A stretch of 64,000 nt of DNA from the NCBI RefSeq assembly GCF_900456975.1, contig NZ_UGYM01000002.1, positions 1,550,001 to 1,614,000 of the forward strand, given 5' to 3'. This document shows, one piece after another, positions 11,598 through 18,619 of the stretch (position 1 is its first letter; each line of letters opens with the position of its first letter). The notes under the pieces are model-generated. The model was not told where the DNA came from. It saw only the letters and a program-made list of their open reading frames with translations, and made no database searches. The position numbers and the translations under genes were made by a program. This DNA is from Shewanella baltica (GTDB lineage Bacteria; Pseudomonadota; Gammaproteobacteria; Enterobacterales; Shewanellaceae).

Positions 11598-14258
11598 ATG
11601 CGCTATTTAAGTTTAACGGCCAAAGCCGTTCGTGCTAGTTTAATTACAGTGGCGACAAGCAGTGTGGTTTTTTCGGGATTAGGCTTTTCTGCAATGGGAA
11701 ATGCAGCAGAAGAAAATACCAAAGTTGAACGCATTGAAGTGACGGGTTCTCGTATTAAACAAGTTGATATGGAAACTGTTTCACCCGTGACAGTCATTAA
11801 TGCTGCGGATATTGCTATGACGGGGGAAAAGACCGTTGCTGACGTATTGAATAACTCTGCGATAAACAGTTTTGGTTCTTGGCGTGGTATTTCAGGTTAT
11901 GGATCTGGTGCAAGCTCTACCAGCAATGTCAATTTACGCGGTTTAGGATCGTCTGCGACCTTAGTGTTATTAGACGGACGCCGTATGCCAGGGACGAGTT
12001 CGAGCTCTGGCTCAGTGGCAGATACATCTTCTATCCCTATGGCTATCGTGGAGCGTATTGAAATCCTGCGGGATGGCGCTTCAGCAGTCTATGGTTCCGA
12101 TGCGGTTGCGGGCGTGATAAACATTATCACTAAGAAAGAGTTTGAAGGTTTTCAGCTTGATTACAGTACAGAGCAACCAAGCGTAGAAGGGGGCGATGCT
12201 AACCGTTTATCGCTCGCAACTGGCTTTAATACAGATAAAGGCAATATCACTCTCACCTATGAATATTATGATACAAAAGCGGTAATGGACCGTGATATTT
12301 GGCGAGTGGATGATTCAAGTTATAACGCCTATAGCGGATATAGCTCAGTACCAAACGGTAAATATGGACCAGGCAATGGTAGCTGGTATAGTAATTCAGA
12401 TATATGTGAAAAAACGGAAAATACCATAGACTCAGGTGATGGTCGTTGTTTATATAATCATGGTAATGTCACCAAATTATTTGGCGATCAAACCCGTAAT
12501 TCGCTGTTATCTAATTTCTCCTATGAGATTTCAGAAAATATAAAATTTCGAGGCCGAGCTTCTGCTTCATTAGCTGAAACTGAAACCCGTTATGCCGGTA
12601 CGCCAGTATCAACTAATACCCCTGTGATGAGTGCCGATAATAAGTACAACCCAGTTGGCGAAGAATTAGTTATTTCTATGCGAGGCGCGCAACTTGGCGA
12701 GCGAGATACATTAACTGAAACCAACAATTTTGATATTCTTGGTGGCTTTGTTGGCACGATAGATTCAGGTAATGGTATCGACTGGGAATTAAATGCCCAG
12801 CATGCGACCTCAACAACAAACAGTTTTAACTACAATTTACTTAATGACGATATTATTCAGCAAGAAATTGATTCAGAGCAATATGATATTTTCAATACCT
12901 CTGGCATGAGTTATGAGCAGTGGGACCAACAGATGACAGATCTGTATCGCAAAGCTGCACATACTGGGGTTTATCAGGGTAAATTCGAAAGTACTCAATT
13001 GGATGGTCTTGCTTCGACCTTACTGCTCGATGACGGTGATTTTTCGGTCGCTATGGTCGGCGGTCTTGAATATGAAATGATCAAGTTTAAGCAAACCAGT
13101 GATCCAGAATCGGCCGCGGGTATTATCTCCGGCGGTTCGGGTGGTGATGATGTGGATGCCACGCGTGACCGTAGCGCCGCTTATTTGGAACTCCAAGTTG
13201 GCTTACCTGCCAACGTTGAGTTCTCTGCCGCAGTACGTTATGAGCGCTATGAGCAGGAAGGAACTCTCACAGGGCCTCAAGGGGAGGTGGTTAACTCATC
13301 GACCTTCGATGCCGTGGTGCCTAAGTTTGGTTTAAGCTGGCGTCCTATAGACACGCTATTACTGCGTGCTAGCTATGGTGACTCATTCCGCGCGCCGAAT
13401 ATGAGTGAAATGTTCTCGTCTCAATCTTTGAGTTTTGAGAAGAGCGTTGACTCATTATGGTGTAATGAACCCGGTAATGTGGATGCCATATATTGCGCTA
13501 CCAATAACCAACATAAAACTTGGTTTGGTGGTAACCCAGATCTAGAAGCTGAAGAAGGTAACTCGTTAACCTTTGGCGGCGTTTGGAATGTCACTGATGC
13601 ATGGAACTTGGAGTTATCCTATTACTCAATCACCTACGACAATAAAATTGAGTCGATTGATGTAGATGATATCCTGCGCGATGAAATCAAGAATGGATCG
13701 TCTCCCTATGTGACCCGTGGTCCAGATGGCAAGATTGAGTATATTGAGGCGGGAATACGTAATTTAGCCACAGTTGAGACCTCAGGTATCGATTTTGTAA
13801 CGGCTTATAACTTAGAGACAGGTTTTGGTGATTTCAATTTCAAACTGGATTTGACTCACGTGCTTGATTTTAAGAAGCAGGATAATGCCGAATCAGAGAT
13901 GATCGATTACGCAGGAACGACAGACTCACCCGATTGGCGCGGTAACTTTGCGACAAGTTGGAAATACGATGATTTCTCTGCCGCATGGACAGTCGTCTAT
14001 ATTGGTAGTCAATCAGCAAGTTATTTCAACGAGTTAGAAAAAACCGACCGTTATGTCGATTACGATAATTACTTTAAACACAATATCCAATTTGGTTATA
14101 CCCATGCTTATAACGGCTCTATCACAGTAGGGGTGAATAATGTGTTTGATGCTGAAACACCAAACTATTATACCTACGCCGATTATCGCGATGTGAATGT
14201 GGGTTTATATGATGTGTTAGGTAGAACGTATTACCTGAGAATAAACCAGAAGTTTTAG
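11598..14258 (+). CDS. TonB-dependent outer-membrane receptor
   Basis: An 886-residue receptor with a cleavable signal (about 1-36, ending near GNAAEE). A TonB-box-like stretch (KVERIEVTGSR) is followed by a plug domain with VNLRGLGSSATLVLLDGRRMPG and IEILRDGASAVYGSDAVAGVINIITKK. A 22-strand barrel ends in the C-terminal aromatic YYLRINQKF. The plug matches the large group of TonB receptors for organic substrates in Shewanella and Alteromonadales rather than a classical siderophore receptor. The ligand cannot be read from sequence. Its position after an exported nucleotidase allows, but does not show, a link to nucleotide-derived nutrients. Ribosome-binding site AAGGAGAG is strong. Confidence 0.93.
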   Translation: MRYLSLTAKAVRASLITVATSSVVFSGLGFSAMGNAAEENTKVERIEVTGSRIKQVDMETVSPVTVINAADIAMTGEKTVADVLNNSAINSFGSWRGISGYGSGASSTSNVNLRGLGSSATLVLLDGRRMPGTSSSSGSVADTSSIPMAIVERIEILRDGASAVYGSDAVAGVINIITKKEFEGFQLDYSTEQPSVEGGDANRLSLATGFNTDKGNITLTYEYYDTKAVMDRDIWRVDDSSYNAYSGYSSVPNGKYGPGNGSWYSNSDICEKTENTIDSGDGRCLYNHGNVTKLFGDQTRNSLLSNFSYEISENIKFRGRASASLAETETRYAGTPVSTNTPVMSADNKYNPVGEELVISMRGAQLGERDTLTETNNFDILGGFVGTIDSGNGIDWELNAQHATSTTNSFNYNLLNDDIIQQEIDSEQYDIFNTSGMSYEQWDQQMTDLYRKAAHTGVYQGKFESTQLDGLASTLLLDDGDFSVAMVGGLEYEMIKFKQTSDPESAAGIISGGSGGDDVDATRDRSAAYLELQVGLPANVEFSAAVRYERYEQEGTLTGPQGEVVNSSTFDAVVPKFGLSWRPIDTLLLRASYGDSFRAPNMSEMFSSQSLSFEKSVDSLWCNEPGNVDAIYCATNNQHKTWFGGNPDLEAEEGNSLTFGGVWNVTDAWNLELSYYSITYDNKIESIDVDDILRDEIKNGSSPYVTRGPDGKIEYIEAGIRNLATVETSGIDFVTAYNLETGFGDFNFKLDLTHVLDFKKQDNAESEMIDYAGTTDSPDWRGNFATSWKYDDFSAAWTVVYIGSQSASYFNELEKTDRYVDYDNYFKHNIQFGYTHAYNGSITVGVNNVFDAETPNYYTYADYRDVNVGLYDVLGRTYYLRINQKF

Positions 14259-15917: not shown

Positions 15918-16186
15918 TGCAGTAAACCCATATCTATTTGCAAAGGGCGAGCATTCTACCTTATCGGCCTTAAGTTACAAAGTGGTCGAGTGAATGCGGA
16001 TTAATAGGCGCACTCATAAATAAAATCCACGCTAAACTGATTGTCCTAGCAGGATATTTTGACCATTTCTGTGATTTAGTGATATTTTTTTGCAATAGAA
16101 TTGAAACAGGGCAGGTCTTTTGCAGTAAGCCAGCTACTTCTACTGTTGTTGGTCAACATTACTCAATAAACAAGAAGGAATTATTT
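15918..16186 (+). promoter_or_regulatory. Divergent dusC / hvfA leader
   Basis: 270 bp of non-coding sequence between dusC and hvfA. It must hold the hvfA promoter. I cannot pick a convincing sigma-70 or copper-responsive site by eye. The ribosome-binding sequence AAGAAGGAA precedes the hvfA ATG. Confidence 0.35.
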
Positions 16187-16618
16187 ATGAATTCAGTTAA
16201 AAAAACAGCAGTTGCAGTAGCCTTAGGTTCAGTCGTAATGAGTTCAGCTTTTGCTGTCAATGCCCAAACCAGCCCGTTTGGTTTTGAAGCAATGGATGCG
16301 GGTTATCAAATTGTCGGCTCAGAAGGTAAATGTGGTGAAGCCAAATGCGGCGCGGATATGAAGAAAGCCGCCGCTGAAAAAGCCAAAGAAGGCAAATGTG
16401 GTGAAGCTAAATGTGGCGCCGAGATGAAAAAAGCGGCCGCAGATAAAGCCCATGAAGGCAAATGTGGCGAAGCGAAATGCGGTGCCGATGTGAAAAAAGC
16501 CGCGATGGCGAAAGCACACGAAGGTAAGTGTGGTGAAGCGAAATGTGGCGCGGATATGAAGAAAACCGCTGAGAAAGTTGACGCTAAAGTCGAAGCCGTT
16601 AAAAAAGAAATGAAATAA
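16187..16618 (+). CDS. hvfA: HvfA-type RiPP metallophore precursor with four Cys-rich repeats
   Basis: A 143-residue precursor peptide. Residues 1-26 form a Sec-type signal (MNSVKK, hydrophobic core, AFAVNAQ). After a short spacer come four tandem 22-residue repeats from residue 46. Each opens with EGKCGEAKCGA and continues with a Lys/Ala helix; the last is cut short before the Lys-rich tail. The eight Cys are at 49, 54, 71, 76, 93, 98, 115 and 120. EGKCG is the motif known in HvfA peptides, where Cys residues are converted to oxazolone/thioamide groups that bind copper. I start at 16187 rather than 16079 because of the AAGAAGGAA site and the signal peptide. Modification is inferred from the adjacent DUF692 gene. 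Confidence 0.9.
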   Translation: MNSVKKTAVAVALGSVVMSSAFAVNAQTSPFGFEAMDAGYQIVGSEGKCGEAKCGADMKKAAAEKAKEGKCGEAKCGAEMKKAAADKAHEGKCGEAKCGADVKKAAMAKAHEGKCGEAKCGADMKKTAEKVDAKVEAVKKEMK

Positions 16619-16661
16619 ATCCGACTGCACTGATTCCCGCAGTGATGGGGGTTATTGAGTC

Positions 16662-16700
16662 AAAAGAGGCCAGCCCGCGCTGGTCTCTTTTGTTTTATCC
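16662..16700 (+). terminator. Hairpin terminator/attenuator between hvfA and hvfB
   Basis: A 13-bp stem (AAAAGAGGCCAGC with its complement, one G-U pair) closes a CCGC loop and is followed by a T-rich tract. It lies between the precursor and the modifying-enzyme genes. It should let hvfA mRNA exceed hvfBC mRNA by partial readthrough, unless hvfB has its own promoter in the 30 bp after it. Confidence 0.8.
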
Positions 16701-16733
16701 TAAAGCGATGACAGCAAGCGTTCGTGAGGTTCT

Positions 16734-17600
16734 ATGAATGATCAAAAAAATGCGGCGCAGGTAGGGCTGGGCTTACGGCGAGAAATGCTCAGTGAGTTTT
16801 GTGTACAGGTGCCTGAAGCTATTAATTTTTTTGAAGTGGCACCAGAAAACTGGATGACCTTAGGCGGTAAGTTTGGCCGTCAATTTCGTGAACTGACCGA
16901 GCAACATAGTTTCTATTGCCACGGTTTGAGCTTATCGATTGGTAGCCCTGAACCCTTAGATCTCACGTTTGTAAAAAACATCAAAACCTTTATGGATTTA
17001 CACCAAATCCAAGTCTATTCCGAACACTTAAGTTATTGCTCAGGCCAAGGTCACTTATACGATCTCATGCCGATCCCTTTTATCGACGCAGCGGTAAAAC
17101 ATGTGGCGGCGCGGGTGAAGCAGGTCGAAGATATTTTAGAGCGGCCACTTATTTTAGAAAATGTGTCATTTTATGCCGCCCCCGGCGCGCACATGAGTGA
17201 ACTTGAATTCGTCAATGCTGTGCTGCAAGAAGCCGATTGTAAGCTGCTACTCGATGTGAACAACATCTATGTGAACTCGATAAATCATCAATACGATGCC
17301 GATACCTTTTTACAGGCCATGCCGACGGAGCGCATCGCTTATCTGCATATTGCTGGGCACTACAAACAAGCTGAAGATCTGCTCATTGATACCCATGGCG
17401 CTGCAATTAACGATCCCGTGTGGGCATTGTTGCAACGTTGCTATGCCTTGCATGGGGTAAAGCCGACCTTGCTTGAGCGTGACTTTAATCTGCCGACAAC
17501 CGCTGAATTGTTGCTCGAGCTAAATCAAATCCACGCTTATCAAGCAGCGGTCAGTTCCCAAATTCAAAATAGCACTCATGCTGTAAAGAGGAGCGCCTAA
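16734..17600 (+). CDS. hvfB: HvfB, DUF692 multinuclear non-heme iron RiPP maturase
   Basis: A 288-residue TIM-barrel enzyme of the DUF692/UPF0276 (MNIO) family, which includes MbnB, TglH and the bufferin maturases. Metal-site motifs in order include EVAPENWM, YCHGLSLSIGSPEPLD, YSEHLSYC, LILENVSFY, LLLDVNNIYVN, YLHIAGH, IDTHGAAI and LLERDFNLP, so the His/Asp/Glu iron ligands look complete. It should oxidise Cys residues of HvfA. GAGG lies just upstream of the ATG. The stop overlaps the start of the next gene by one base (TAATG), a sign of translational coupling. The signal-less sequence indicates action in the cytosol before export of the precursor. Confidence 0.93.
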   Translation: MNDQKNAAQVGLGLRREMLSEFCVQVPEAINFFEVAPENWMTLGGKFGRQFRELTEQHSFYCHGLSLSIGSPEPLDLTFVKNIKTFMDLHQIQVYSEHLSYCSGQGHLYDLMPIPFIDAAVKHVAARVKQVEDILERPLILENVSFYAAPGAHMSELEFVNAVLQEADCKLLLDVNNIYVNSINHQYDADTFLQAMPTERIAYLHIAGHYKQAEDLLIDTHGAAINDPVWALLQRCYALHGVKPTLLERDFNLPTTAELLLELNQIHAYQAAVSSQIQNSTHAVKRSA

Positions 17601-18346
17601 TGGATTTTAAGCAAGTGCAGCAATCCTTTATCGATTATATCCGCGATCCCTCTTCGCCATTGCCTGCGGATACTGATGTCCGGCGCATGCAGGTTTACCG
17701 CGAGTTATTTTTTAATAATGTGCTGGGATTTGTGTCGAACGGCTTTCCCGTGCTGAAAAGTTTGTATTCTGAGGAAGACTGGTTAGCTTTGGTGCAGAGC
17801 TTTTTTAGCCAGCACGATTGCCAATCGCCGATTTTTATCGACATCGCGGGCGAGTTTTTAGATTTTTTACAGCAGGAATATCAGCCCACGGCAAATGATC
17901 CTGTTTTTATGCTCGAATTAGCGCACTATGAATGGCTGGAGTTGGCCGTTGCGGTCGCACAGGTGAGTGGGGATGAATCTCAACTTAGCCCAGCGCAAAT
18001 TCTGACGCAGGCGTTATGTTTATCGAAGACGGCGAGGGTAGCGCAGTATCATTTTGAGGTGCAGCACATTCGTCAGGATTATCGTCCGCAGCAACAACTC
18101 GATGCGCCAGTGTTTTTTTGTCTCTATCAAGATGCCGATTGTGAAGTGTGTTTCTTACAGTTAAACCCCTTAAGTGCGCAGGTGCTGGCATTTCTTCAAG
18201 CTCAAGGCCAAGCGGGTTTTCAAGAGATAGTTGATTGGTTAACAATCACTTACCCTCAAATGGTGCCAGAAGTTATTGAGCAAGGTTGTAGCCAGTTGCT
18301 CGAGCAATTAGCGGCCAAAGGGATAGTGCGCGGACGTCAGTCTTAA
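17600..18346 (+). CDS. hvfC: HvfC, DUF2063 partner of the RiPP maturase
   Basis: A 248-residue DUF2063 protein, the usual partner of DUF692 enzymes (MbnC/BufC/HvfC role). It binds the precursor leader and presents the substrate to the maturase. The N-terminal domain (about 1-95) has QQSFIDYIRDP and RMQVYRELFFNNVLGFVSNGFPVLKSL. The C-terminal half resembles a winged-helix recognition domain. The start overlaps the hvfB stop, so a tight HvfB-HvfC complex is likely. The old name 'putative DNA-binding domain' of this family is probably misleading here. Confidence 0.9.
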   Translation: MDFKQVQQSFIDYIRDPSSPLPADTDVRRMQVYRELFFNNVLGFVSNGFPVLKSLYSEEDWLALVQSFFSQHDCQSPIFIDIAGEFLDFLQQEYQPTANDPVFMLELAHYEWLELAVAVAQVSGDESQLSPAQILTQALCLSKTARVAQYHFEVQHIRQDYRPQQQLDAPVFFCLYQDADCEVCFLQLNPLSAQVLAFLQAQGQAGFQEIVDWLTITYPQMVPEVIEQGCSQLLEQLAAKGIVRGRQS

Positions 18347-18496: not shown

Positions 18497-18619
18497 ATGA
18501 GTAGTCAGCCGTTTAAAGACCCATTTAATTTTTTGTATTTTATTGGTTTTATTTTAGTTTTACTGTTGCCGACTCTGCCAGCAAGCCTGTCTTGGTTAAA
18601 GCACTTAGGTCTAATTTAA
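18497..18619 (+). CDS. 40-residue single-pass membrane protein
   Basis: A short gene with AGAGGAGCTG directly upstream of its ATG, so translation is likely. The product begins MSSQPFKDPFNFLYF, has one hydrophobic helix (about residues 14-28, IGFILVLLLPTLP) and ends in a short amphipathic tail (SWLKHLGLI). I do not recognise the family. Its own leader holds a CRP-like site and a hairpin terminator follows, so it looks like an independent transcription unit. Such proteins often serve as small subunits of membrane complexes, but no partner is visible here. Confidence 0.65.
   Translation: MSSQPFKDPFNFLYFIGFILVLLLPTLPASLSWLKHLGLI

Follow-up and report, generated by a model that had tools for sequence, protein, structure and literature searches.

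How a precursor peptide with two kinds of cysteine motif is matured, and how its production is balanced against that of its maturase, are the questions raised by the hvfABC locus of Shewanella baltica. The locus lies in a 64,000-nucleotide (nt) stretch of contig NZ_UGYM01000002.1 (assembly GCF_900456975.1, positions 1,550,001 to 1,614,000 of the forward strand), here called the window, and coordinates below count from its first letter. A first-pass annotation had described an operon for a ribosomally synthesised and post-translationally modified peptide (RiPP), with a DUF692 multinuclear iron oxidase (MNIO) and a DUF2063 partner, and had proposed that half of the precursor's eight cysteines might stay free. 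We consider it very probable that this is instead a compact captophorin operon in which all eight cysteines become 5-thiooxazoles to give a copper-binding periplasmic peptide, presumably expressed from an extracytoplasmic function (ECF)-type promoter shared with a BufA2 operon and carrying a putative terminator behind hvfA that would permit read-through. The genes and putative signals are as follows.

16187..16618 (+): hvfA, RiPP precursor of 143 amino acids (aa), with four EGKCGEAKCGA heads, eight Cys and, as judged by eye, a signal peptide of Sec type; profile NF050137 (KCGExKCG_twice) matches in four stretches at 94.7 bits, cut-off 19.5
16734..17600 (+): hvfB, MNIO (DUF692) maturase, 288 aa; NF003818 at 438 bits, cut-off 360; PF05114 at 347.7 bits
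17600..18346 (+): hvfC, DUF2063 / RiPP-recognition partner protein, 248 aa; NF050145 at 289.9 bits, cut-off 142; PF09836 and PF22106
16091..16118 (+): ECF-sigma-like box, a putative promoter; TGCAAT at 16091-16096, 17 nt, GGTCT at 16114-16118
16128..16154 (+): possible, weakly indicated 5' stem-loop of the hvfA transcript, AGCCAGC / GTTGGTC with G-U pairs included
16661..16692 (+): intrinsic-terminator-like hairpin between hvfA and hvfB, 14 pairs, then TTTTATCC

The first-pass annotation had the coordinates, strand and reading frames of the three genes right, together with the one-base overlap in which base 17600 both ends hvfB and starts hvfC (TAATG), an arrangement found in 95 of 127 Shewanella loci with the starts as we assigned them. 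Its description of an hvfABC RiPP operon also stands, since HvfB and HvfC both score above their NCBIfam cut-offs. Among solved structures, sequence comparison ranks 3BWW first for HvfB (E value 6.6e-68) and 3DEE first for HvfC (4.5e-8), and the closest named genome among the matches listed, from which records of the genome itself may have been omitted, is Shewanella hafniensis (HvfB, 97%). Judged by sequence, the operon belongs to the known class of oxazolin/captophorin (Lys-Cys) RiPPs. It has an MNIO of the HvfB family (NF003818), a DUF2063 (PME1 / HvfC) partner (NF050145) and a precursor that joins repeated (E)GKCG motifs to an N-terminal signal peptide. To our knowledge, few oxazolin-type operons have been characterised so far. 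The oxazolin hvf operon of nontypeable Haemophilus influenzae (NTHi), as described in PMC13419390, shares the Sec-signal precursor, the paired EGKCG motifs, the HvfB MNIO and HvfC, whereas the window has four pairs rather than three, EAKCG at each second site, and 22-residue units with Lys/Ala-rich linkers and an extra C-terminal tail. The wider Buf_EGKCG/oxazolin family, surveyed in Microbial Genomics, comprises about 2,000 precursors, mostly from Pseudomonadota, with RiPP, MNIO, DUF2063 and DoxX genes in various combinations (PMC12452194). The words 'Shewanella' and 'EAKC' are absent from the main text of that survey; compared with the family as described there, the window's group, 20 loci that we defined by repeat type rather than by tree, is distinguished by 21-22-residue units.

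Several observations weigh against the class assignment. HvfA scores below the cut-off of the HvfA equivalog NF050188 (58.7 against 95 bits), its AlphaFold model (mean predicted local distance difference test score 34.3, predicted template modelling score 0.14) lends no structural support, and the operon lacks the DoxX-like gene (HvfX) of its H. influenzae counterpart. When two DoxX proteins of the genome served as queries, which remote DoxX may escape, DoxX lay near hvf in only 3 of the 127 Shewanella loci, and the three DoxX-family matches in the genome are all far from the hvf operon. A DoxX-like gene is a common but not strictly defining part of hvf operons. The three loci with a nearby DoxX gene (L238-L240, in genomes G127, G052 and G011) are divergent hvf loci. 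As to neighbouring MNIO classes, HvfB falls below the cut-off both for bufferins (MNIO_BufB, NF050167; 263.2 against 310 bits) and for the methanobactin enzyme MbnB (41.6 against 325 bits).

The annotation's suggestion of a copper peptide is upheld as probable on the strength of published homologues, whose products have copper as ligand and a link to its detoxification (PMC13097082). A methanobactin-like peptide, released from the cell to acquire copper instead of buffering it in the periplasm, would employ the same enzyme superfamily. HvfB does match the MbnB profile and a TonB-dependent receptor gene lies upstream (11598-14258, +), but the match is far below the cut-off, two opposite-strand genes separate the receptor from hvfA, and the homologues are tied to detoxification; we regard copper acquisition as very improbable. 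The receptor gene shows no sign of membership in the operon. In the periplasmic buffer that we favour, HvfA would be made with a Sec signal and its cysteines converted in the cytoplasm, where HvfB, with HvfC as recognition-domain partner, would oxidise the eight cysteines of the four EGKCGEAKCG pairs to 5-thiooxazoles; the modified peptide would then be exported to the periplasm to bind surplus copper. The chemistry, the need for HvfC and the copper binding are here carried over from published homologues by analogy.

The repeat structure of HvfA is as first described. EGKCG begins at residues 46, 68, 90 and 112 (spacing 22, 22, 22), the eight cysteines form four C-x4-C pairs that recur every 22 residues, and in each head EGKCG comes first and EAKCG second. 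The heads, EGKCGEAKCGA, are identical in protein sequence in all four units, with similar Lys/Ala-rich linkers after heads 1-3 and a divergent C-terminal tail after head 4. When the four 66-base units were compared in all six pairings by the Nei-Gojobori method and the counts summed, the 11-residue heads showed 26 synonymous differences and no non-synonymous one, against 24.8 and 48.2, respectively, for the next 11 residues, which indicates purifying selection on the heads and little constraint on the linkers. The earlier statement that the repeats differ mostly at synonymous codons is therefore correct for the heads and wrong for the residues behind them, and the selection on the peptide that it had been taken to suggest is borne out for the heads. 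Free drift, which the annotation had also considered, is not seen in the heads, while the linkers are little constrained.

To place this precursor in its genus we examined 129 Shewanella genomes, counting one hvf locus per genome (n=127). HvfB is present in 127 of them (E value 1e-60 or better) and the KCGExKCG domain in 125, and ahead of hvfB every one of the 127 loci shows an open frame containing two or more KCG-like motifs, the frames of L201 (masked upstream) and L229 (running off the contig) being partial. These precursors contain 1244 Cys-Gly pentamers, namely 1159 EGKCG, 55 EAKCG and 30 others, two of the last stemming from over-extended frames. They form 509 pairs (456 EGKCG/EGKCG, 52 EGKCG/EAKCG and 1 EGQCG/EGKCG), most commonly spaced by 17, 21, 22 or 16 residues (134, 84, 53 and 45 cases). 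Repeat number, which the annotation had wished to see compared among Shewanella genomes, varies from 0 to 7 pairs and from 2 to 14 Cys per precursor, partial frames included. In the window's group, a count of three or four pairs with a spacing of 21-22 residues holds for 19 of the 20 loci, among them L132 with one additional unpaired site; the exception is L159, with a single pair plus four lone sites. We also observed precursors with many units that each carry a single EGKCG and no pair, in L011 (S. benthica) and similarly in L163, L164, L195 and L198.

Is the cysteine of EAKCG modified? The product at cysteine is now assigned as 5-thiooxazole, with a loss of 4 Da per site, replacing the earlier oxazolone/thioamide (PMC13419390). 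The six cysteines of NTHi HvfA are HvfBC substrates (PMC13419390), and upon co-expression every EGKCG repeat of oxazolin is fully modified (PMC13097082). A close precedent is fontiphorin, the captophorin of the Fontimonas thermophila fon operon, which also combines EAKCG and EGKCG in one precursor. In FonA the cysteines of both motifs become 5-thiooxazoles: FonBC removes 8 Da from a two-site substrate with the core EAKCGEGKCG, the fragment FonA67-80 (SGEAKCGEGKCGEK) is alkylated at both Lys-Cys sites, and among non-Pro variants at motif positions 1 and 2 processing was blocked by Arg at position 1 only (PMC13097082). Fontiphorin differs from HvfA in having seven sites and in that EAKCG precedes EGKCG in the tested fragment (PMC13097082). 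The domain name of NF050137, KCGExKCG, already admits EAKCG.

The enzyme points the same way. HvfB R15, R16, D250 and F251 are invariant in an alignment of 125 rows, in which the window protein is counted twice and L206, L213 and L241 are excluded for stops or length. By position and local sequence, FonB itself being unaligned, they correspond to FonB Arg15, Arg16, Asp249 and Phe250, which a published model puts close to positions 1, 3 and 5 of the motif or which are suggested to act as the base (PMC13097082), so that the fontiphorin enzyme has the same Arg-Arg and Asp-Phe residues as the window HvfB. No column of the alignment separates species with EAKCG from those without, whether across the genus or within the window's group. 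What we observe directly, then, are the genes, their family membership and the conservation of the heads and of the catalytic and substrate-contacting residues. In one of the excluded loci (L241, genome G105) the HvfB match is split into two pieces that overlap, an internal stop interrupting one of them, and the gene looks broken.

The alternative, that EGKCG cysteines become thiooxazoles while EAKCG cysteines stay free thiols to give a mixed chelator with alternating ligands, draws on the distribution of alanine. Ala occurs at the first site in 0 of the 509 Shewanella pairs and at the second in 52, and this second-site-only pattern recurs outside the main group, in L217, L221 and L228; some asymmetry of the two sites is therefore real. 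Because FonA has its Ala at the first site, the published test was not of the same site order, and in vitro only about five of the six NTHi HvfA cysteines were converted (-20.3 Da; PMC13419390). These points count against full modification. Against the mixed chelator stand the modification of FonA EAKCG and the processing of non-Pro changes at position 2 (PMC13097082), the lack of any HvfB position separating EA from EG species, and the mixing of Gly and Ala. The two alternate at the second site across Shewanella orthologues and inside single precursors (L122, L123, L133 and L139, for example). An EGKCG/EAKCG pair occurs in 20 loci, and in eight of these (L122, L123, L128, L132, L133, L138, L139 and L217) the same precursor also contains EGKCG/EGKCG; outside Shewanella EAKCG is found at the first site in L022, L029 and L051. 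We take the second-site Ala as a sign of relaxed constraint. The proposal that EAKCG cysteines are left unmodified is thus not supported, and the mixed thiol/thiooxazole chelator, rejected as leading reading, appears to us highly improbable; by analogy with FonA, all eight HvfA cysteines, not half, are probably substrates.

The second question concerns dosage. A hairpin with a T-rich tail (criterion: a stem of at least 7 pairs followed by the tail) lies in the hvfA-hvfB gap of 107 of the 127 Shewanella loci, where dinucleotide shuffles predict 0.9. Stem sequences vary while pairing is kept, as in GGCCAGC/GCTGGCC, AAGGCCTG/CAGGCCTT, AACAAGATCAGT/ACTGATCTTGTT and TGCCACGCGGG/CCCGCGTGGCA. Outside Shewanella, 38 of 69 loci were readable, the rest lacking a precursor that could be recognised or having fewer than 40 nt in the gap; 11 of the 38 have the hairpin (0.55 expected). 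This conservation suggests that the hairpin acts as a terminator with read-through that limits the dosage of the maturase. Most transcripts would then cover the precursor alone, with read-through supplying smaller amounts of HvfBC. A terminator between the precursor gene mccA and the first maturation gene mccB is described for microcin C (PMC6495379), and the words 'terminator' and 'hairpin' are absent from the main texts of the captophorin papers PMC12452194, PMC13097082 and PMC13419390. The hairpin could alternatively be a full terminator, with hvfBC a separate transcription unit under its own promoter. The strength of the 14-pair stem and the 41 nt between hairpin and assigned hvfB start in the window would allow this. 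In L189, L202 and L154, however, that distance is just 10-16 nt, which leaves no room for a promoter, and a scan of the window's hairpin-hvfB stretch for sigma-70-type sites, the one promoter type covered, found none. We therefore judge separate units unlikely and retain read-through as the probable arrangement.

Upstream of hvfA the genus shares the consensus TGAAAT-N17-GGTC. Without dereplication, 118 of the 127 loci match it at 9 or 10 of 10 positions, four at 8 (L118, L119, L200 and L221, the first two being near relatives of the window) and three at 7 (L238-L240), with two lacking sequence in that region. Shuffles of the 125 readable loci predict 2.7 loci at 9 or better and 25.8 at 8 or better, so a score of 8 says little; the pair in L200 is probably chance because it stands just 38 nt ahead of the start. 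We aligned 122 upstream regions, dereplicated them at 85% to 57 and set five aside (L201, masked; L226, wrong start; L238-L240, without the box). The remaining 52 hold 41 perfect boxes, 9 with one change and 2 with two, and N17 gave the highest score when spacings from 16 to 19 were compared, with ties assigned to 17. In L239 and L240 we noted a box-like pair, TGTAAT-N17-CGAC, in place of the genus box. Beyond the genus, the box is perfect in 7 of 53 regions upstream of hvfA-like genes, where 0.1 would be expected, and matches at least 8 of 9 positions in 15 (2.6 expected). From this conservation we infer that the box functions as an ECF-type promoter of hvfA, TGMAAT-N17-GGTCT. Neither of the S. 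oneidensis ECF promoters GAACTT/TCTACA and TGATCC/CGTATT given in PMC4336711 equals it, and it is unlike the Caulobacter sigF box GTAACC-N16-CGAA of DUF2282-DUF692-DUF2063 genes (PMC3511200).

Behind the box, a stem above threshold occurs in the 5' region of 45 of the 52 dereplicated loci (11.2 expected from shuffles), the window's own stem-loop being below threshold. RNAalifold reported no structure from a gappy alignment of the hvfA 5' region, and the single Rfam match, to Yfr8 on the opposite strand, is sub-threshold (22.7 bits, threshold 40) and is taken as chance.

The same box recurs at the one other MNIO locus of the genome (L001, G000:C2:727826-728608), which like hvfABC has an MNIO plus partner with TGAAA-N17-GGTC upstream, and differs in its 12-Cys BufA2 precursor (NF050166) and its MNIO_BufB (NF050167, above cut-off). 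The L001 BufA2-type precursor consists of two similar six-Cys halves. Among 30 BufA2 loci, the best of a family search plus our own, not dereplicated and with precursors chosen by Cys pattern, a perfect TGAAA-N17-GGTC lies no more than 300 nt ahead of the precursor in 25, against 0.03 in shuffles, and a match of at least 8 of 9 in 29 (0.68 expected). This suggests that the hvfABC and BufA2 operons share a regulon, with the ECF-type promoter before hvfA common to both. Scans of the genome itself found TTGMAAT-N16-18-GGTCT at 5 places, against 6 in a reversed control, and TTGAAA-N18-GGTCT at 2 places, again against 6; a regulon is not callable from the box scan of one genome. A TTGAAA-N18-GGTCT site elsewhere in the genome (L243, G000:C2:2297366-2297394) has no evident gene directly downstream. 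In the literature searched we met neither the box before hvfA and the second MNIO operon nor the hvfA-hvfB hairpin.

Which sigma factor might read the box? NF009170 (PRK12517), the one sigma factor of the genome that we profiled as a candidate, is encoded next to a DUF3379 gene (a candidate anti-sigma) and is found in 124 of the 129 Shewanella genomes (E value 1e-40 or better). Of the five genomes without it, G024 and G029 have no MNIO that we found, and G011, G052 and G127 carry the hvf loci without the box (L240, L239 and L238); this co-absence agrees with the idea but may be a single event, because the five genomes may form one old branch. Against the idea stands the occurrence of the box in 0 of 30 loci within 400 nt upstream of the annotated sigma start (0.15 expected). 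In 14 of these 30 loci (L321-L350), the window's genome not among them, CGAAAT-N17-GGTC, a 9-of-10 match, stands 16 nt inside the annotated NF009170 frame (e.g. L322:1516). It may reflect coding conservation or the promoter of a shorter frame, and we count it neither way. NrsF, the partner of Caulobacter sigF, was not found. In open-licence full texts we found no literature on DUF3379 or PRK12517, and for Shewanella with DUF2063 and a sigma factor only the Caulobacter work, with nothing on point. We advance only tentatively, at somewhat less than an even chance, that a hitherto undescribed ECF regulon governs copper-RiPP production in Shewanella and neighbouring genera, in which the NF009170 sigma reads TGAAAT-N17-GGTC at hvfABC and BufA2 while the hvfA terminator sets the ratio of precursor to maturase by read-through.

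The neighbourhood of the operon is conserved. Ahead of hvfA lies dusC on the other strand, and after hvfC come a 40-aa open reading frame (ORF) and a DUF454 gene, followed by what we take to be apt and dnaX. The 40-aa ORF (18497-18616, +) is hydrophobic, without a family match above cut-off, and occurs in 121 of the 127 Shewanella loci and 60 of 197 genomes of the order; the two Shewanella genomes that lack HvfB, G024 and G029, gave no match to it. We considered it as a fourth operon member and rejected it. Of 20 regions examined from the 47 matching genomes outside Shewanella, 16 have apt and 5 have HvfB, so that the ORF goes with apt-dnaX rather than with hvf. Where relatives have no HvfB match (L311, L313 and L314), dusC is the neighbour of the 40-aa ORF and apt, so that hvfABC occupies a variable slot within otherwise conserved surroundings.

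For the family, the genus-wide set shows what evolution keeps, the paired KCG heads and the Arg-Arg and Asp-Phe residues of the enzyme, and what may drift, the linkers, the number of pairs and the choice of Ala or Gly before KCG. If box and hairpin are functional, they would explain both the production of many substrates for each maturase and the joint induction of two different copper RiPPs, in bacteria in which this is easily tested.

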